Shown here: one piece after another, positions 1 to 6,818 of the stretch
Layout: each line of letters starts with the position of its first letter
How positions within the stretch are numbered: the first letter of the stretch is position 1
Assembly: GCA_947371645.1 (NCBI GenBank)
Contig: CANBQJ010000202.1
Coordinates: forward strand, 1 to 6,818
From: Burkholderiales bacterium
Lineage (GTDB): Bacteria; Pseudomonadota; Gammaproteobacteria; Burkholderiales; Burkholderiaceae
Length of the DNA stretch: 6,818 nt
Direction of reading: 5' to 3'
Notes under the pieces: model-generated
Told to the model about the DNA's origin: nothing
Database searches by the model: none
Seen by the model: only the letters and a program-made list of their open reading frames with translations
Program-made: the position numbers and the translations under genes

Positions 1-698
1 ACCTGCATGCTGCGCTCACCAAAGCTACAGGCCAGCAGCTGCTGCGGCACCACCTGGGTGTAGGTGCCCGCAAAGTCAAAGCCCATGCTGCCGTCCTTGG
101 CCTCCATGCGCGATGAAAAGCCGCCGCCCACGCGCAGGTCCACCTCGGCGCGGGTGGTGTGCCAGTCGGGCGACGCGGCGTTCCACTGGGTGATGTCGGC
201 CGGTGTGGTCCAGGCCTGCCAGATCAGTGCCAGCGGGGCGGCGATGGTGGTCTCCACGGTGATCTTCACGGGGCCTTGGCCGGCACCCAGTTCGGTGGCC
301 AGGCGGTCCAGGTTCTGCTCATTGGCCGGCTCGACGATGTGCCGAACGGCCTGGGCCACGGCCGGGTCGTCGAAGGTCTGGTCCCAGCGCAAGAGCGTGC
401 CGCCCGCAGCCGGCTCCAGGGTGATGGCCAGCTGAAAGTGCGGCGCGTTCACATGCCGGATCACCACCTTGCGGTCAGGCTCGATGACGTCGAACACCGA
501 CTCGTTGGGGTAGGTGCTGCCGTCAGGGCCGATCATGGTGAAGACCCAGTTGCCACCCACCGTGAAGTCGAACACGTCGAAGCGGTTGGCAAAGCCCGCA
601 GGGCCCCACCACCTGGCCAGCCGTTCGCCTTGCCTGATGGCGTCGAAGATGGCTGCGGGTGAGGCCTGCAGTTGGCGGCTGGTGCTGAAGGTGGTCAT
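1..698 (-). CDS. Tandem AHSA1/SRPBCC-domain protein, 3' end cut by window edge
   Basis: At least 232 codons are open to the left edge, so the C-terminus is missing. The ATG at 698 follows a clear GAGGAG Shine-Dalgarno with 7 nt spacing. Two consecutive START/AHSA1-like units can be read. The first, about residues 1-140, contains the ARWWGP segment near residue 30 and a VGGNWVFTM strand. The second starts near residue 143 with VKITVETTIAAP and continues through WTTPADITQW and a VGGGFSSRMEAKDG strand. These follow the usual AHSA1 pattern: an N-terminal strand, 'AP..lW.aWT', then 'vGG.f...m'. The family forms a helix-grip fold with a hydrophobic cavity; members bind varied ligands or assist Hsp90-like chaperones, and most bacterial ones have no assigned reaction. 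It lies 37 bp downstream of the cupin gene on the same strand and could be the last or a late gene of the cluster. The family call is firm; the function is unknown. Confidence 0.85.
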   Translation of the reverse strand, partial: MTTFSTSRQLQASPAAIFDAIRQGERLARWWGPAGFANRFDVFDFTVGGNWVFTMIGPDGSTYPNESVFDVIEPDRKVVIRHVNAPHFQLAITLEPAAGGTLLRWDQTFDDPAVAQAVRHIVEPANEQNLDRLATELGAGQGPVKITVETTIAAPLALIWQAWTTPADITQWNAASPDWHTTRAEVDLRVGGGFSSRMEAKDGSMGFDFAGTYTQVVPQQLLACSFGERSMQ

Positions 699-735
699 GT
701 CACGGCTCCTCTTACCTGGCAAGGCGGTTGCAAGA

Positions 736-1179
736 TCAGGTCGACAGCATATCGGCCTTGCCGCCGGCGTCCTGCGGCGGGTGGTCCTGGAACCATTGCG
801 CGATGCCCGGCATGTGCGGCTCAAAGCCACCCGGCACCGAAAAATTCAGCACGCCTGCGCGCGCGTTGCTGCGGTTCTCGAAGTCATGGGTGAGCCCGCC
901 AGGGATGAGCACGAAGGCACCCCGGCTCGCCTCCACCCACGTGTCGCCCACCAGCAGGCTCATGGTGCCTTCGATGACGTAGAAGACGTCGTCCTCAGGG
1001 TGGGCGTGCGCACCCGGGCCTTGGGTGTGGGCGTCCAGCCACCATTCGGAAATGGCATAGCGCGACCCGGTCTCTTCGCCATCGGCCTTGAACACGGCGG
1101 CGATGCGGCCCATGGGGTAGGCGCGGCCTTCGCCGGGGCTCAGGACAACAGGCAGGCGGGCGGATGCGGAAGCAGGCAT
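736..1179 (-). CDS. Small single-domain cupin protein
   Basis: The product is 147 aa. The ATG at 1179 is preferred because AGGAG lies 5 nt upstream; an in-frame TTG at 1206 would add nine residues but lacks a comparable ribosome site. Both cupin motifs are visible. Motif 1 at about residues 54-71 has H58 and H60 followed by FYVIEG. Motif 2 at about residues 87-101 contains PGGLTH, with H98 as the third metal-binding histidine. The motif 1 position normally held by glutamate appears to be Asp (D64, or D63). No signal peptide or membrane segment is seen, so it is probably cytoplasmic. Cupins of this size range from metal-dependent dioxygenases and isomerases to plain ligand-binding proteins, and substrate cannot be read from sequence. 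It sits 46 bp after the flavin reductase-like gene and 37 bp before the SRPBCC gene, suggesting co-transcription. Confidence 0.88.
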   Translation of the reverse strand: MPASASARLPVVLSPGEGRAYPMGRIAAVFKADGEETGSRYAISEWWLDAHTQGPGAHAHPEDDVFYVIEGTMSLLVGDTWVEASRGAFVLIPGGLTHDFENRSNARAGVLNFSVPGGFEPHMPGIAQWFQDHPPQDAGGKADMLST

Positions 1180-1225
1180 GAGGGCTCCTGTGGACCAGCT
1201 CGCCAAAGGGCAAGCAGCGGATGGG

Positions 1226-1768
1226 CTAAACGCCGGGTGGCAGTTTAGACAACATCATGTCTCTCTTGTTGAGCGTCTCGCCATCCACCACGAAAGTGCC
1301 GTCCCCAACGGCATGGATGGTTCTCTGCTCGGCGCGGTCGGCATCCCGGTAGGCGGCGATGCCCTCCAGCACCACGATGTCGTGCTTGCGCACGATGTCC
1401 ACCACCTGGCACTCGATGTTGGCCAGGCACTCTTGGATGAGCGGTGCAGGCACATGCTTGGCGGCCACAGGGGTCAGGCCAAAGCGCGCGAACTTGTCGA
1501 CGTCCTTGCCCGAGCAGGTGCCCACCCCCAGGACCTGGTCGATGAGGTCCACCGTCGGGATGGCGATGACGCACGCCTTCGTCTTCTTGAGCGCTGCGAA
1601 GGAATGGTTCCAGGCGCCGGTGGTGATGGCGAACCTGGGCGTGAAGCCCATGACCATGGTCCAGGAGATGGTCATGACGTTGGGGCGCTCGCCGTCATGG
1701 GTGGTGACCCAGACGACGGGGCCAGGCTCCAGCAAGGTGAAGGCCTTGCTCAGTGGGTAGGGCTTCAT
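1226..1768 (-). CDS. Flavin reductase-like FMN-binding split-barrel protein (flavoredoxin/DIM6-NTAB type)
   Basis: The product is 180 aa, normal for the single-domain flavin reductase-like family. The ATG at 1768 follows GGAGG at good spacing. The FMN-binding region is recognisable in the first third: VVWVTT near residue 18, then NVMTISWTMVMGFTP at about 30-44, where backbone and Ser/Thr side chains normally hold the FMN phosphate. The segment around residues 71-99, containing PTVDLIDQV, a CSGKDVDKF stretch and FGLTP, is typical of the flavoredoxin branch. Four cysteines are present (C66, C85, C114, C120), but no CxxC or heme motif. Family members bind FMN and either reduce free flavin with NAD(P)H or pass electrons to a partner. 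There is no export signal, so it should act in the cytoplasm. It starts 45 bp after the tetraheme cytochrome gene; a role tied to extracellular electron transfer is possible but is only inferred from position. Confidence 0.88.
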   Translation of the reverse strand: MKPYPLSKAFTLLEPGPVVWVTTHDGERPNVMTISWTMVMGFTPRFAITTGAWNHSFAALKKTKACVIAIPTVDLIDQVLGVGTCSGKDVDKFARFGLTPVAAKHVPAPLIQECLANIECQVVDIVRKHDIVVLEGIAAYRDADRAEQRTIHAVGDGTFVVDGETLNKRDMMLSKLPPGV

Positions 1769-1782
1769 CGCGGTCCTCCGCG
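1769..1782 (-). promoter_or_regulatory. Small hairpin overlapping the Shine-Dalgarno of the flavin reductase-like gene
   Basis: CGCGG and CCGCG can pair around a 4-nt AGGA loop immediately before the ATG at 1768. The GGAGG ribosome site is split between the stem and the loop. If the hairpin forms, it would dampen initiation and make translation depend on ribosomes or unwinding from upstream. The pairing is visible directly; any regulatory effect is inferred. Confidence 0.3.
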
Positions 1783-1813
1783 GATGAGGCTAACAGAAGA
1801 AGCCTGGCGGGGC

Positions 1814-2410
1814 TCACTCTTCGTCCGGGTCGCGGTACTCCTTGGGCAGGTGGTGCGCGATGCCCTTGTGGCAGTCGATGCAGGTCTGGCCGGCCGCCTT
1901 GGCCGCCATGTGCTTCTTGTACACGGTCTGCTTCTGGTACTCGGGGCTCATGGCATCGAAGTTGTGGCAGTTCTTGCATTCACGTGAGCCGGCCGCCTTC
2001 ATGCGCTCCCACTCGTGGGTGGCCAGCTCCATGCGGTGGGCTTCGAACTTCTCCGGTGTGTCCACATAGCCCGTGATCTTGCCGAACACCTCTTTGCTGG
2101 CTTGCATCTTGCGCACCATCTTGTGTACCCAGTCGCGCGGCACGTGGCAGTCGGAGCAGATGGCGCGCACCCCGGTGCGGTTCGCGTAGTGGATGGTCTG
2201 CTTGTACTCCTGGTAGACGGTGTCGCGCATCTCGTGGCAAGAGATGCAGAACTCCAGGCGGTTGGTTTCTTCCAGCGCGGTGTTGAAGCCGCCCCAGAAG
2301 ATGATGCCGCCCACAAAGCCCAGCACCAGCAAGGTCAGCAGCGAATACTTCGCCGAAGGCCTGCGCAAGGCCCGCCACAGGCGGCCCACGCCGCGTCCAT
2401 CGTTGTCCAT
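1814..2410 (-). CDS. cymA: NapC/NirT-family tetraheme cytochrome c (CymA/ImoA-like quinone-linked cytochrome)
   Basis: The product is 198 aa, normal for the family. A short cytoplasmic N-terminus rich in Arg/Lys is followed by one membrane anchor at about residues 23-41. The periplasmic domain then carries exactly four CxxCH heme sites, at C55-H59, C85-H89, C145-H149 and C177-H181. The CHEM segment after the first heme, the CSDCHVPRDW segment at the second and the C-terminal HKGIAHHLP are family hallmarks. The ATG at 2410 follows AAGGGAG with 6 nt spacing. In Shewanella, CymA oxidises menaquinol and feeds MtrA; in iron oxidisers the homologue (called ImoA in some work) is proposed to pass electrons from MtoA/MtoD into the quinone pool. 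It lies 43 bp downstream of the barrel gene, so it is probably translated from the same message. Family assignment is near certain; the symbol and the direction of electron flow are inferred from context. No nap or nir genes lie nearby to suggest nitrate or nitrite reduction. Confidence 0.93.
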   Translation of the reverse strand: MDNDGRGVGRLWRALRRPSAKYSLLTLLVLGFVGGIIFWGGFNTALEETNRLEFCISCHEMRDTVYQEYKQTIHYANRTGVRAICSDCHVPRDWVHKMVRKMQASKEVFGKITGYVDTPEKFEAHRMELATHEWERMKAAGSRECKNCHNFDAMSPEYQKQTVYKKHMAAKAAGQTCIDCHKGIAHHLPKEYRDPDEE

Positions 2411-2449
2411 CTTCTTCTCCCTTGGGTGCCGATGCCCGAGCCGTCCACA

Positions 2450-2466
2450 CCGGTCAGAACGACCGG
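2450..2466 (-). other. Short stem-loop spanning the stop codon of the barrel gene
   Basis: CCGGTC and GACCGG form a 6-bp stem with a 5-nt loop across the mtoB stop codon (2454-2456), 40 nt before the tetraheme gene start. There is no following T-run. It may be an mRNA-processing or stability element, or chance in GC-rich sequence. Confidence 0.25.
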
Positions 2467-4847
2467 ATGTAGCCCAGGCCGATCACGTTGACGTGGTAGT
2501 GGCCAGGCGTCTGGTTGGTGGCCATCAGCGAGCTGGGCGTGCTGCCCTGCTGGTAGCCGTTGTAGTAGTAGTCGGCGGCACCCATGCGCTGCATCATGTA
2601 GGCCACGTTCACCGTCGAGGCCTTGTCGATGGCATAGCTGCCATGGAGCTTGAGCTGGGCCGTCAGGGTGCGGATGTCGGGCAAGGTGCCGCATGAGCCA
2701 ATCACCACGGCACCCGAGGTGTTGGTGCTGTCGCAGGTCACGCCGCCACTGGTGGCCGCCGTGTAGTTCAGCCGCGTGTTGTAGCGCGTCCGCCCCAGGG
2801 CATACGACAGGTCGCCAGACACCTCCAGCCGGCCACTCATCAGGCCCTTCTCCTTGAGGCCCGCGCCGATGGTCACGTCGCGGTCGGTGAGCTTGTTCGT
2901 CCATGAGGCCGTGGCCGGTACGACGAGGGCCGTGGCCGACAGCGTGTTGGCGCTGGGCGTGGTGTTGTAGCGCTGCAGGTCGGTCAGTTCGCGTTGGCGC
3001 TGCTGTGCAGAGACATAGCTGAAGACCGAGCCGGTGTCGCTGTAGGCCAGGGTGCCGTCGGCGTCCAGGCTCCAGCGCTTGCCGCTTTGCACGCCGTAGT
3101 CGCCGCCATAGGCGTCATGGGTGAAGCTGCCCCCCAGGCCCAGGCTGAGCGCATCCGTCACCCCGATGTTGAACATGCCCTTGACGGTCTGCTCGCGGCG
3201 CGAGGCCTCGAAGAAGGGGTGGAAGCCGGGGTAGTCGCCAGCGTTCTGGCCAGCTGGCGTCGTGTTGCCGGCTGCGGGCACCGGCCCGGTCAACGAGCCG
3301 TTCTGGCTGACGAAGGCTGCGCGCGCATACGGGTCGTAGTCCGTGTTGCGCACCGCGTAGATGTAGCCCAGCTTGAGGTCGGAGCTCTCGCCCAGCTTCA
3401 TCCGATAGCCGGTGTCCAGCTTGGTGTCGTGGCTGCCGGTGGCCACCACGCAATTGCTGCCTTGCGGGTAGCCTGCGTTGACCGCGTAGTTGTTGCACCA
3501 ACGCTTGAGCTCTTCGCGCGAGACCGCCGCCCGCACGCTCTGCCCGGCCTGGATGCGGTAGTCGGCAGACACTTCAATGAACTGCTTGCGCAGGCTCATG
3601 GGCGTGTTCGGGTAACTGGCCGCGTGGCTGCCGTCGATGGCGTAGAAGTTGTAGATGTTGGACGCGGTCTGGTTGTCGCGCTGGTCGTAGCGGAACGCGG
3701 CACCCAGCGTCAGGCCCTTGAGGCTTTGATCGGTCAGGCGCAAGTCGGTATGGGTGTTGAACACCTTGCCCGTCAGCGAAGCGGCCGGCGCCGTGGTGAT
3801 CATCAGGCCGGAGGGCCACGAGCCCGGGTCGACATAGGGCGCGTCTTGCGTGTTGCGGCTCCAGGACAGGCTGCCGGCCAGCTTGGTCTCCTGGCGCAGC
3901 TTGTAGCCACCGCTGAAGGTCAGCTGGTTGAGGCTGTTGCTGGGTGCGGTGGCCACGTACTGCACCGCCTGGCTCATGCCGGTGACCATCGATGGCACGT
4001 AGCCCATCTTCTCGTTGTCGTCGTGGAAGAAGGACCCTGCATAGGCGGCGGTCCAATAGGCATCGTCGCCCGTCCAGTTCAGCGCCACGTTCAGGCCGTC
4101 GGTCTGGTAGCGCGTGGGCATGGGCAGCACGGTGACCGCTTCGCCACCCAGTGCAGCCACCGGAGACCCGACGCCAACGGCCGCCGAGCCGATGCCCTGC
4201 AGCTTGGCGCCAGACTGGTTCATGCGGCTGAAATCGACGTTGAGGCTCAGCTGCGGCGTGATGACCGTCGCCCCCATCAGGCTCGCGTTCTGGCGACGCG
4301 TCGAGATGTCCAGGTTGTGGAAGGCGCCGCGTTGCGTCGCGTTGAGGTTGTTGGTGCCGGCGCCGCTGGTCGAGACCAGGCCGAAGCCCGTCGGCAGGGT
4401 GAACAGGCTGCCACCGTTGGTGCCCACATAGGGCGTCTGGTAGGAGTCACTCAGGTTGTGCACCAGCTCGTCGTAGGCCGCGCTCAGCGTCCAGACGCCC
4501 ACCCTGCTGGTGCTCAGCTGCAGCGAGCGGTTGCTCAGCCCCAGGTCGGCCGCCTTGAGGGACCAGCGGTAGACCCCGCCCTTTTCGTTGTCGGTGTAGC
4601 CATCGCCACCCTTCAGGTTGGCCGAGCCGTTGAGCCGCGTGCCCTTGTCCTGCAGGCCGTTGTACTCGCCGAACTTGGCCGACGCCTCGTTGACGGTCAC
4701 CGTGCTGAGCTCGATGGTGTTGGTCGGCAGCTTGAGCGCGTCGGCGGCATCGCCGCCCTCTTCGCCATGGGCAGCCATCGACCCGAAAACGGCGCTCAGG
4801 GCCACGGCCATGGCCGTCAACCTGAAGCGTGTGGTGTGCGATCTCAT
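2454..4847 (-). CDS. mtoB: MtrB/MtoB/PioB-family outer-membrane beta-barrel of the electron conduit
   Basis: The product is 797 aa, in the size range of MtrB/PioB porins. A signal peptide is visible (Arg-containing start, hydrophobic run at about 11-22, cleavage near residues 25-28). The mature N-terminus carries the KFGEYNGLQDKG segment typical of the family. The rest alternates polar and hydrophobic residues in strand-like stretches with Gly/Asn/Ser/Thr-rich loops, and it ends in the C-terminal aromatic signature YIRSF used for outer-membrane insertion. The barrel sheathes the decaheme partner and lets electrons cross the outer membrane. Only four cysteines occur (C451, C466, C705, C719), in two close pairs likely in loops; the N-terminal CxxC of Shewanella MtrB is absent. 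The ATG at 4847 follows AAGGGG by 6 nt and lies 16 bp after the decaheme gene, indicating tight coupling. The symbol mtoB rather than pioB or mtrB is chosen from the neighbouring MtoD- and CymA-like genes. Confidence 0.92.
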   Translation of the reverse strand: MRSHTTRFRLTAMAVALSAVFGSMAAHGEEGGDAADALKLPTNTIELSTVTVNEASAKFGEYNGLQDKGTRLNGSANLKGGDGYTDNEKGGVYRWSLKAADLGLSNRSLQLSTSRVGVWTLSAAYDELVHNLSDSYQTPYVGTNGGSLFTLPTGFGLVSTSGAGTNNLNATQRGAFHNLDISTRRQNASLMGATVITPQLSLNVDFSRMNQSGAKLQGIGSAAVGVGSPVAALGGEAVTVLPMPTRYQTDGLNVALNWTGDDAYWTAAYAGSFFHDDNEKMGYVPSMVTGMSQAVQYVATAPSNSLNQLTFSGGYKLRQETKLAGSLSWSRNTQDAPYVDPGSWPSGLMITTAPAASLTGKVFNTHTDLRLTDQSLKGLTLGAAFRYDQRDNQTASNIYNFYAIDGSHAASYPNTPMSLRKQFIEVSADYRIQAGQSVRAAVSREELKRWCNNYAVNAGYPQGSNCVVATGSHDTKLDTGYRMKLGESSDLKLGYIYAVRNTDYDPYARAAFVSQNGSLTGPVPAAGNTTPAGQNAGDYPGFHPFFEASRREQTVKGMFNIGVTDALSLGLGGSFTHDAYGGDYGVQSGKRWSLDADGTLAYSDTGSVFSYVSAQQRQRELTDLQRYNTTPSANTLSATALVVPATASWTNKLTDRDVTIGAGLKEKGLMSGRLEVSGDLSYALGRTRYNTRLNYTAATSGGVTCDSTNTSGAVVIGSCGTLPDIRTLTAQLKLHGSYAIDKASTVNVAYMMQRMGAADYYYNGYQQGSTPSSLMATNQTPGHYHVNVIGLGYIRSF

Positions 4848-4863
4848 GATGATCCCCTTGCGT

Positions 4864-5880
4864 TCAACGTTGCAGGAAGCCGCCGGCCGGGCTGTTGCTG
4901 CCGTGGACCATGCTGTGGCAGTTCATGCAGGCACGGCCCACCAGGTTCTTGCTGGGGAACTGGGCGGCACCGGATGCATTGGTGCTGGACAGGCCGGCCT
5001 GGTAGCCACCGGCGTTGACACCGGCAGGCGTGCCGCTGGCGTGCGTGCCGTCATGGCATTCCTGGCACAGGAAGGGCGCACGTGACTTCAGCAAGGGCGT
5101 GATGTTGGAGCCGTGCGGGTTGTGGCAGTTGGTGCAGTCTTCCGTCACGGGCTGGTGCTCGAAGAGGAAGGGGCCGCGCTTCTCGGCATGGCACTGGTAG
5201 CAGGTCTCGGTCACCGAGGCCTTCTTGAGCAGCTTGGGGCCGGTGGAGCCGTGCGGGTTGTGGCAATCGCTGCAGACCACCTTGCCCGCCAGGATGGGGT
5301 GCGAGGAGATCTTGTGGGCGTCGGCGCGCTGAGTCTTGTGGCAGGCAAAGCAGACGTCAGGCTGGGTCTTCTTGTCCAGCACCTTGTCGGCGCCGCCGTT
5401 GTGCACCTTGTGGCAGTCGTTGCAGGCCAGGCCAGCCGACTCGTGCTTGCCGCCGTCCCAGTTGCTGCGCTTCTGGCCCTTGTGGCAAGCCAGGCAGGCA
5501 CCGGCGCGATCACGTTCGTCGCTGCTGGCGTAGACGCCCTTCTTGAACACCACGTCGGGGGCTGGGCGCGTGCCGCTGCTGGCGCCCTGCCCGCCGGCCA
5601 CGTGCTTGTCGCTGCTGCCGTGGCAGGACTGGCAGGTGGGCGCATTCGGGTTGCCGCGCGCCCCATGCTTGGTCTGGTAGATCGACAGGATGGGCGCGTT
5701 CTCCGACTCATCGTGGCAGCGCGTGCAGGTGGCATCCTGCTTCACGCGTGCCGCAGCGCCATCCGATGCCGCCGCGGCCAGTTCGGGCAAGGCGACCTGT
5801 TCGCCGGCCATGGCCGGCCCGGTGTGAAGCAATGCGGTGGCCAGTCCAAAGGCCATGCACATGCGCGCAATCCATCTCAT
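4864..5880 (-). CDS. mtoA: Periplasmic decaheme cytochrome c, MtrA/MtoA/PioA (DmsE-type) family
   Basis: The product is 338 aa, close to the roughly 330 aa of MtrA and lacking the long N-terminal extension of PioA. A Sec signal peptide ends at the AMA site (A25). Exactly ten CxxCH motifs follow, starting at C52, C83, C129, C153, C177, C203, C227, C249, C272 and C318. Repeated distal-ligand-type segments such as CSDCHNPHGS and CTNCHNPHGS show the two-pentaheme repeat pattern of the family. The ATG at 5880 follows GAGAGGGG with about 6 nt spacing. MtrA-type proteins insert into the MtrB barrel and carry electrons between periplasm and cell surface. The following barrel gene starts 16 bp later. 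No DMSO reductase subunits are present, so a DmsE role is unlikely. The choice of mtoA over mtrA rests on context (monoheme MtoD-like gene upstream, no surface cytochrome gene); sequence alone does not fix whether electrons flow in or out. Confidence 0.94.
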   Translation of the reverse strand: MRWIARMCMAFGLATALLHTGPAMAGEQVALPELAAAASDGAAARVKQDATCTRCHDESENAPILSIYQTKHGARGNPNAPTCQSCHGSSDKHVAGGQGASSGTRPAPDVVFKKGVYASSDERDRAGACLACHKGQKRSNWDGGKHESAGLACNDCHKVHNGGADKVLDKKTQPDVCFACHKTQRADAHKISSHPILAGKVVCSDCHNPHGSTGPKLLKKASVTETCYQCHAEKRGPFLFEHQPVTEDCTNCHNPHGSNITPLLKSRAPFLCQECHDGTHASGTPAGVNAGGYQAGLSSTNASGAAQFPSKNLVGRACMNCHSMVHGSNSPAGGFLQR

Positions 5881-5942
5881 GGGGAACCCCTCTCAATCAG
5901 TCGATCACCCATCGCGTGCCATGTCGGGCAAAGCTGCGCCTG

Positions 5943-5965
5943 AGGCGACGGGCTGGCCGTCGCCT
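5943..5965 (-). other. GC-rich intergenic stem-loop between monoheme and decaheme cytochrome genes
   Basis: A perfect 9-bp inverted repeat (AGGCGACGG and CCGTCGCCT) encloses a 5-nt loop. It lies about 31 nt after the stop codon of the monoheme cytochrome gene and about 62 nt before the decaheme start. No U-run follows on the minus strand, so it is not a classical Rho-independent terminator. It could be a weak attenuator or a 3'-end stabiliser that lets the small cytochrome be made in larger amounts than the decaheme protein. The structure is seen directly; the role is inferred. Confidence 0.55.
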
Positions 5966-5996
5966 GGATCTGGCGCGCGAATGGGGGGAGTCGGAG

Positions 5997-6347
5997 TTAC
6001 AAGGACAGGATCCAGTCGACAAGGTTCTTCACCTCGGCGTCGTCCTTGGCCTTGATGACCTTGTGTGGCTCTTCGTGGCCATCCGGGAACTTGGCCTTCT
6101 CGCCGCTCGTCAGGTGCTTGATCAGCCGGGCTTCGGCCTCAGGCTTGCCCTTGTTCTTGGCGGCCACTTCCTTCCAGGGCGGGCCATCTTTCTGCTTTTC
6201 AATGCCATGGCACTTGAAGCAGTTGTTCTGCCGGGCCAGGGCCTCGGCAGCTTCCTTGTCGGCGGCCTGTGCGGGGATGCACAGGGCGCCCAACAGCAGG
6301 GCGGCACAGAGGCCGGCCAACATCTGGCGTGGGATTGGTTTGTTCAT
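5997..6347 (-). CDS. mtoD: Periplasmic class I monoheme cytochrome c (MtoD-like)
   Basis: The product is 116 aa with a clear Sec signal peptide: basic N-terminus, LAGLCAALLLGAL core and cleavage after AQA at residue 28, leaving an 88-residue mature domain. One heme site, CFKCH (C43, C46, H47), lies near the mature N-terminus, and the C-terminal helix ends in LVDWILSL, as in small c-551/c-552-like cytochromes. The mature protein contains no methionine, so the usual Met sixth ligand is impossible. H95 in the PDGHEEPHK segment lies next to the normal ligand position; H91 and H78 are alternatives. Position directly upstream of the decaheme gene and size suggest a periplasmic shuttle between the outer-membrane conduit and inner-membrane acceptors, as proposed for MtoD in Sideroxydans. 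The ribosome site before the ATG at 6347 is weak. Cytochrome identity is certain; the mtoD symbol rests on context. Confidence 0.85.
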   Translation of the reverse strand: MNKPIPRQMLAGLCAALLLGALCIPAQAADKEAAEALARQNNCFKCHGIEKQKDGPPWKEVAAKNKGKPEAEARLIKHLTSGEKAKFPDGHEEPHKVIKAKDDAEVKNLVDWILSL

Positions 6348-6486
6348 GCGTCAACGCTCGACTGGTCATCCTGGACATCGCACCGCAGCCTGCTGGCTGA
6401 CTGGAGCGGACATGCACCGCATTGCCGCGGCACAAATGGGAAACTAGCCCATGTGTCCTTTTGTGTCTCAACGTTTCCGCATGTGC

Positions 6487-6500
6487 TTGCGGTGCATCAA
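6487..6500 (-). promoter_or_regulatory. Possible degenerate FNR/ANR-like box
   Basis: On the minus strand the site reads TTGATGCACCGCAA. Compared with TTGAT-N4-ATCAA, one half is perfect and the other matches three of five bases. It lies upstream of the weak -35 candidate, at a plausible activator position, and overlaps one arm of the TGCGGTGCA inverted pair, so either reading may be wrong. Oxygen control would make sense for this conduit, but the evidence is thin. Confidence 0.15.
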
Positions 6501-6527
6501 GTTCGAAACGTGGGGGTACGGACAGGG

Positions 6528-6550
6528 TGTGGCGGCCAGGAGTCGCCACA
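6528..6550 (-). terminator. Stem-loop downstream of the LuxR-type gene, candidate terminator without U-tract
   Basis: A 7-bp perfect inverted repeat (TGTGGCG and CGCCACA) encloses a 9-nt loop and lies about 63 nt after the regulator stop codon. A second, smaller hairpin, CCCGA/TCGGG with a 5-nt loop, is at 6563-6577. Neither is followed by a T-run on the minus strand. They may end regulator transcription in a Rho-assisted way or be operator palindromes for the downstream promoter. Confidence 0.3.
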
Positions 6551-6591
6551 GGACCATGCAGCCCCGATTTGCTCGGGACATCGCCCCAAGA

Positions 6592-6621
6592 CACACGCCC
6601 GTCACACGCCGCTCACACGCC
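6592..6621. repeat. Three CACACGCC repeats at exact 11-bp period
   Basis: CACACGCC occurs at 6592-6599, 6603-6610 and 6614-6621, so the copies start 11 bp apart, close to one helical turn. The third copy overlaps the last codons and stop of the LuxR-type gene; the first two are intergenic. Such phased short repeats can be a binding array for a regulator, but chance expansion in GC-rich DNA is possible. Confidence 0.5.
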
Positions 6622-6818
6622 CAGGCCGCGCGAAGCCAGGGCGGCGGCGGCCGCACGCGTCTCCACCCCCAGCTTCTCGAAGATGTGTTCCAGGTGCTTG
6701 TTGACCGTGCGGTGGCTCATCCCCAGGATGTCGGCGATGTCGCGGTTGGTCTTGCCCTTGGCCAGCCAGGACAGCACCTCGGTTTCGCGCGGGGTGAGCG
6801 TGGGCAAGGCCCCCCTGC
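6613..6818 (-). CDS. LuxR/NarL-type transcriptional regulator, C-terminal HTH only (5' end outside window)
   Basis: Sixty-seven codons plus the stop are present and the frame stays open through the right edge, so the start and any sensory or receiver domain are not visible. The fragment is a complete LuxR-type DNA-binding domain: LTPRETEVLSWLAKGKT opening, then NRDIADILGMSHRTVNKHL forming the scaffold and recognition helices, then the FEKLGVETRAAAA helix. This pattern is usual for NarL/FixJ response regulators and related stand-alone regulators, which bind DNA as dimers. It is transcribed in the same direction as the cytochrome genes and ends 265 bp before the first of them, so it may control them, but that is inferred from position only. 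The apparent in-frame TTG near 6807 lies inside the domain and is not a real start. Confidence 0.9.
   Translation of the reverse strand, partial: RGALPTLTPRETEVLSWLAKGKTNRDIADILGMSHRTVNKHLEHIFEKLGVETRAAAAALASRGLGV

Follow-up and report, generated by a model that had tools for sequence, protein, structure and literature searches.

The 6,818-nucleotide stretch of Burkholderiales DNA analyzed here (contig CANBQJ010000202.1, positions 1 to 6,818; hereafter the window) carries four neighboring genes, mtoD, mtoA, mtoB and imoA, that are well supported by their sequences as an Mto-type porin–cytochrome conduit, i.e. the known mtoD-mtoA-mtoB-imoA set rather than a novel system. It is equally well supported that this four-gene operon is an ordinary member of the Mto family, albeit one with unusual flanks. 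Such a set in a beta-proteobacterium is expected and unsurprising, because mto homologues are common in Proteobacteria (PMC10654088) and mto clusters are variable, with mtoC present in ES-2 and D. aromatica and only mtoABD in Thiomonas (PMC5566968). Taken as a whole, the reading that we favor is that of a conduit with inward electron flow from extracellular Fe(II), which we regard as probable.

The four-gene array

All four open reading frames (ORFs) are intact and share the minus strand, with intergenic gaps of 116 bases between mtoD and mtoA, 16 between mtoA and mtoB, and 43 between mtoB and imoA (Table 1). The original prediction, made from the letters of this DNA, had described one, ten and four CxxCH motifs in three exported cytochromes together with a barrel, all on a single strand; the ORF list and motif counts bear out this description and its coordinates (1814-6347) are exact, export being a judgment made by eye from the sequence. 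Could the motifs be there by chance? When the products of mtoD, mtoA and imoA were shuffled 2000 times each, the mean numbers of CxxCH were 0.0025, 0.09 and 0.02, with maxima of 1, 2 and 1; the ten motifs of MtoA and the four of ImoA are thus far beyond chance, and the lone motif of MtoD, a number that shuffles also reach, has weight only jointly with its family match.

Table 1 Features of the window and of loci from relatives (handles beginning with L)
Feature	Position	Strand	Basis or remark
mtoD, monoheme class I cytochrome c, 116 residues	5997-6347	minus	ORF, 1 CxxCH, PDB match, heme-ligand residues
mtoA, decaheme cytochrome, 338 residues	4864-5880	minus	ten CxxCH and ten conserved non-motif His, family models, trees
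mtoB, outer-membrane barrel, 797 residues	2454-4847	minus	MtrB/PioB family, 0 CxxCH, predicted fold
imoA/cymA, NapC/NirT tetraheme cytochrome, 198 residues	1814-2410	minus	4 CxxCH, family models, ligand residues
Region before mtoD, 265 bases	6348-6612	minus	inverted repeat ATGGG-7-CCCAT at 6436-6452
LuxR-type regulator, C-terminal helix-turn-helix part, cut by window edge	6613-6816	minus	ORF and domain scan; neighbor upstream of mtoD
Flavin reductase-like protein (PF01613)	1226-1768	minus	45 bases after imoA
Cupin-domain protein	736-1179 (ATG at 1179; longer start TTG at 1206)	minus	neighbor
SRPBCC/AHSA1-domain protein, cut by window edge	3-698	minus	neighbor
Kinase and regulator before monoheme gene	L006 6746-9447; L024 6743-9417		similar in L001, L004, L005, L007, L008, L010, L016, L017, L018
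Kinase and regulator before monoheme gene, further loci	L023, L034, L042, L048, L051, L054, L068		
Palindrome CATAGGAATATTCCTATG	L010 9441-9458		plus 12 further loci

Alongside its ten CxxCH motifs, the decaheme protein MtoA has ten conserved histidines outside them, the likely distal ligands expected of a decaheme Mto protein. It matches MtrA in sequence (PDB 6r2q_A, E 7.8e-67) and passes the DmsE/MtrA-family model of NCBIfam (TIGR03508) with 279 bits against a cut-off of 192. Since this model is named for the DmsE family, might the operon instead encode a DmsEF conduit to an extracellular dimethyl sulfoxide (DMSO) reductase? The same family name is carried by the MtoA of Sideroxydans ES-1 and by many Shewanella relatives; the MtoD and ImoA partners fit Mto; and none of 16 related genomes has a DmsA match above the cut-off, all 16 giving weaker matches to related molybdoenzymes (E. 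coli served as the positive control). The DmsEF label was rejected because dmsAB is not found within the window, which has other genes at both ends, and we regard a DMSO-reducing conduit as scarcely credible.

Kinship to ES-1 MtoA (P0095) is evident from 65% identity over 92% of the query and from phylogeny. The comparison of decaheme proteins that had been proposed as a check places that of the window with ES-1 MtoA in both of our trees, in which PioA is absent, with support of 99 in a quick tree and 94/99 (not starred) in a careful one. Rows were trimmed to 40 residues ahead of the first CxxCH motif, and decaheme ORFs with fewer than nine such motifs (e.g. those truncated in L062, L076 and L023 1-787) were excluded. 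In the quick tree, long branches attract each other (L081 joins the gamma rows); the careful tree comprises 47 of the 101 rows, picked by hand, and leaves out the long-branched Rhodoferax MtrA of L081, L063_15724 and both L080 rows.

The barrel scores 346 bits against a cut-off of 240 in the MtrB/PioB model of NCBIfam (TIGR03509), and an MtrB-like barrel thus directly adjoins the decaheme gene. Its predicted fold matches that of MtrB, with 17-19% identity by fold alignment. Neither the window barrel nor any of the 74 relatives of at least 700 residues has the N-terminal CxxC seen in Photobacterium MtrB. We take this motif to be a mark of the MtrB of metal reducers, and on that footing we count its absence against outward flow.

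The monoheme protein scans as a class I cytochrome c, and its closest solved structure is that of MtoD itself (PDB 4xxl, E 2.6e-39). MtoD uses unusual heme ligands, His47 and His95 (PMC4412085). The window protein has its CxxCH at residue 43 and both of these histidines, and the usual His/Met ligation is impossible because no Met occurs after residue 9; the residues thus point to the bis-His heme of MtoD. The second-ligand His is kept in 59 of 64 aligned monoheme rows, the window among them. Tandem MtoD-like genes precede mtoA in three relatives (L009 1613-2513, L015 8978-9847, L016 9166-9955), and the second copy retains the DGHEE..H stretch, with VKL(S/T)DGHEE replacing KFPDGHEE.

The tetraheme protein reaches 252 bits in PF03264 (NapC/NirT; cut-off 24) and falls slightly below the cut-off of the NCBIfam napC_nirT model (303 bits, cut-off 311). 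What distinguishes ES-1 ImoA from CymA is CxxCHxM at heme I, a Met that CymA lacks; His186, His74 and His167 are its predicted distal ligands, and Lys101 is conserved (PMC13390432). The window protein has CISCHEM at heme I and His74, Lys101, His167 and His186, all at the ES-1 numbering. CxxCHxM is found in 31 of 31 tetraheme relatives with more than 150 aligned residues.

Comparison with known systems

Sideroxydans' four components, which the original prediction had recognized in this DNA, are matched with their order included (the ES-1 order being taken from papers), and the ligand residues of MtoD and ImoA stand at identical numbers. Against this likeness, the window differs from the ES-1 cluster in having no second monoheme gene like pmcA (slit_2494) and in its flanks, a LuxR-type fragment upstream and flavin reductase, cupin and SRPBCC genes downstream. 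Metagenome-assembled genomes (MAGs) of Comamonadaceae and other Burkholderiales (e.g. L001, L005, L006 and L024) share all four genes and their order, with identities to the window of up to 76% for the decaheme protein (L061, partial) and 76% for the tetraheme protein (L001). By the relatives of its decaheme protein, the host of the window operon is probably a beta-proteobacterium of the Burkholderiales. In many of these MAGs a sensor kinase and response regulator precede mtoD, and in several the ccm genes follow downstream, whereas neither is in view in the window.

Two other labels were considered. The likeness to Shewanella MtrCAB lies in a decaheme protein in a 26-strand barrel (PMC7198977), with a sequence match to MtrA and a fold match to MtrB; however, the barrel has little sequence identity to MtrB, and the MtrCAB label was rejected because no gene for a surface multiheme MtrC/OmcA lies within the window. 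Rhodopseudomonas PioABC likewise has a decaheme protein and a barrel and no surface cytochrome (from papers), whereas the window adds tetraheme and monoheme partners and no pioC-like gene is among those scanned. Of the proposed "Mto/Pio-type" conduit, the Mto half holds, by the grouping with ES-1 MtoA and the same four genes, and the Pio label was rejected because the gene following the barrel is NapC/NirT, not the high-potential iron–sulfur protein gene pioC.

From 589 candidate stretches, a scan of species genomes yielded at least 445 relatives; the 80 best loci were retained for comparison. Among the 49 loci with more than 700 bases before and more than 3.3 kb after the decaheme gene, the order monoheme-decaheme-barrel-tetraheme occurs in 20 and only the first three genes in 16. 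Methanotroph loci (Methylococcales, Crenothrix; L026, L028, L030, L033, L035, L036, L044, L045 and L057) are mtoD-mtoA-mtoB-like with no linked tetraheme gene. Of the 44 loci with at least 6 kb downstream, 11 have ccm genes behind the decaheme gene (L001 6328-9739; L005, L006, L009, L024, L027, L039, L046, L061, L063, where they lie behind a second conduit pair, and L075).

Direction of electron flow

How would such a conduit work? The ten-heme wire of MtoA, seated in the MtoB barrel, would let electrons cross the outer membrane; ImoA, an inner-membrane-anchored four-heme protein, would exchange electrons with the quinone pool, either way; and MtoD, a small two-histidine cytochrome, would be the periplasmic carrier, whose acceptor may be a high-potential one, for instance an oxidase. 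Electrons would most likely flow inward as a rule, with extracellular Fe(II), solid minerals included, as the source. Inward flow is the better guess given the ES-1 MtoA kinship, the MtoD and ImoA partners, a window without a surface cytochrome, and a RuBisCO family match in 10 of 16 related genomes. It is also favored by the detection of ES-1 MtoA only on solid magnetite (PMC12016527) and by strain CL21, in which mtoD and imoA rise along with the ability to oxidize iron (PMC12442390). The original prediction had likewise favored Fe(II) oxidation, in part from the absence of a surface decaheme gene; that absence is confirmed by the ORF and motif lists, and Fe(II) oxidation stands as the better guess but is not readable from the genes, because MtoA and MtrA are poorly separated in published trees (PMC10734462, PMC8805035).

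Along with this poor separation, several other points weigh against inward flow from Fe(II). Electron direction is not encoded in these genes, and Mtr wires are thought to be bidirectional (PMC10734462, PMC8805035). In CL21, mtoA expression did not track iron-oxidizing ability (PMC12442390). The decaheme branch of the window is fairly long (0.39) in our trees, and the 21-row set in the careful tree includes L063_9929, which has two nine-heme neighbors (717 and 454 residues), one of which could be a surface cytochrome. No RuBisCO match was found in 6 of the 16 related genomes, and the family model also catches RuBisCO-like proteins (a B. subtilis control matched); absences in these 16 genomes are soft, because most are MAGs. 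Finally, a 2026 paper describes PmcA, rather than MtoD, as exchanging electrons with ImoA and MtoA, and this ES-1 study reports finding no MtoD interaction with either (PMC13390432); by motif count, the window has no PmcA counterpart, its monoheme gene being the only one there (the PmcA sequence itself was not searched).

The ES-1 Mto cluster, slit_2494-2498, includes PmcA (PMC13390432), and the earlier description of a "complete" conduit is thus too strong for a window with one monoheme gene, although its four genes stand; PmcA in the cluster is an ES-1 feature, and membership among the other published mto clusters does not depend on it. Among 23 loci with 1.5 kb downstream, a single-CxxCH ORF follows the tetraheme gene in two (L059 and L064), and both of these ORFs are MtoD-like in loci without an upstream monoheme gene. 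With no second monoheme gene seen, MtoD is again a candidate for the shuttle that serves ImoA in this branch.

Might the conduit instead serve chiefly to send electrons out, to Fe(III), humics, electrodes or some other oxidant? ImoA substitutes for CymA as the quinol oxidizer in Shewanella (PMC13390432), and a Rhodoferax relative (L023) has an mto-like set plus a separate mtrC-mtrA pair. However, it is at this pair, in this one MAG of the 16 related genomes, that MtrC was matched at all, and the missing surface decaheme gene and the tree position beside ES-1 MtoA likewise argue against outward flow, which we consider unlikely. The wire could also be two-way, its direction set by redox state with none fixed, as has been raised for MtoA (PMC10734462) and for ImoA (PMC13390432); nothing specific to the window supports this, and we judge it quite unlikely. 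Inward flow from Fe(II) is the reading that we retain.

A candidate control module in relatives

In 18 of 61 loci with at least 2.5 kb upstream of the decaheme gene, a sensor kinase and a LuxR-type response regulator are encoded; 17 of the 18 pairs lie on the mto strand directly before the monoheme gene, and the pair of L043 is on the opposite strand. L001, with a shorter flank, also has the pair, and a looser rule finds it in 22 of 80 loci. The two kinases scanned have Cache, PAS and HisKA_3 domains. The regions upstream of mtoD in relatives share a palindrome, CATAGGAATATTCCTATG; with up to three mismatches, its 13 sites in the 80 loci (1,128,448 bases) are all found 137-250 bases upstream of where the mtoD match begins. 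Across 20 whole genomes, the same limit gives 20 places in 16 genomes, compared with five for a reversed control pattern; 12 of the 20, including all seven with zero or one mismatch, were assigned to mto by their letters, and the other eight, with two or three mismatches, lie elsewhere, in four genomes (G001, G008, G019 and G020) as the only places. Palindrome sites with up to five mismatches accompany the kinase–regulator pair in 16 of 20 loci vs 1 of 24 without (Fisher 1.7e-7, a value that overstates the case because the consensus was built from these very loci, the five-mismatch limit was set by hand and many loci are kin).

From these sequences, the kinase, response regulator and palindrome look like a control module of mto in relatives, with CATAGGAATATTCCTATG as its candidate operator. 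In the literature searched we found no description of an mto kinase or regulator, which is not proof of its absence in print; a "response regulator" mentioned in PMC12442390 is a lactate regulator in the passage concerned, not one of mto.

Flanks of the window operon

The kinase/regulator module was not seen in the window, and the region upstream of its mtoD holds no good match to the palindrome (at best 8 of 18 positions mismatch, which a fraction of 0.43 of 500 shuffles equal). The LuxR-type fragment at the window edge is probably a different regulator, because only 14-21 residues over 45-55 are identical to the response regulators of 14 relatives. The inverted repeat before mtoD might serve as operator for the regulator at the window edge, or might have arisen by chance. 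A promoter scan gave nothing usable: zero sigma-70-like sites (0.6 expected) and seven terminator-like sites (4.4 expected). On the other side, the flavin reductase gene is possibly co-transcribed with imoA, as the four mto genes presumably are with each other. An identical 180-residue flavin reductase is listed on two contigs, and the best 120 of its 7976 relatives are mostly unnamed, with scattered Propionivibrio, Pseudomonas, Thioalkalivibrio and uncultured others. There is no sign of a foreign insert, because GC content is even throughout the window (61-68%).

A more adventurous idea is that the mto genes have departed from the setting common in relatives (kinase, regulator and palindrome, and ccm) and now stand under a different LuxR-type regulator and before a possibly co-transcribed flavin reductase gene; in that case the conduit would answer to other signals and perhaps be flavin-coupled, with MtoD or an unlinked cytochrome replacing PmcA. 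We hold this to be very unlikely.

Outlook

With this window, a clear Mto operon is added from beyond the cultured Gallionellaceae; its lineage is near freshwater Comamonadaceae MAGs. That no additional monoheme gene follows imoA, as in most relatives examined, tests the 2026 pathway model; another partner must serve ImoA here. The side finding in the relatives may outweigh the window operon itself in value, as the kinase, regulator and palindrome would open a way to study how extracellular electron uptake is switched on in such bacteria.
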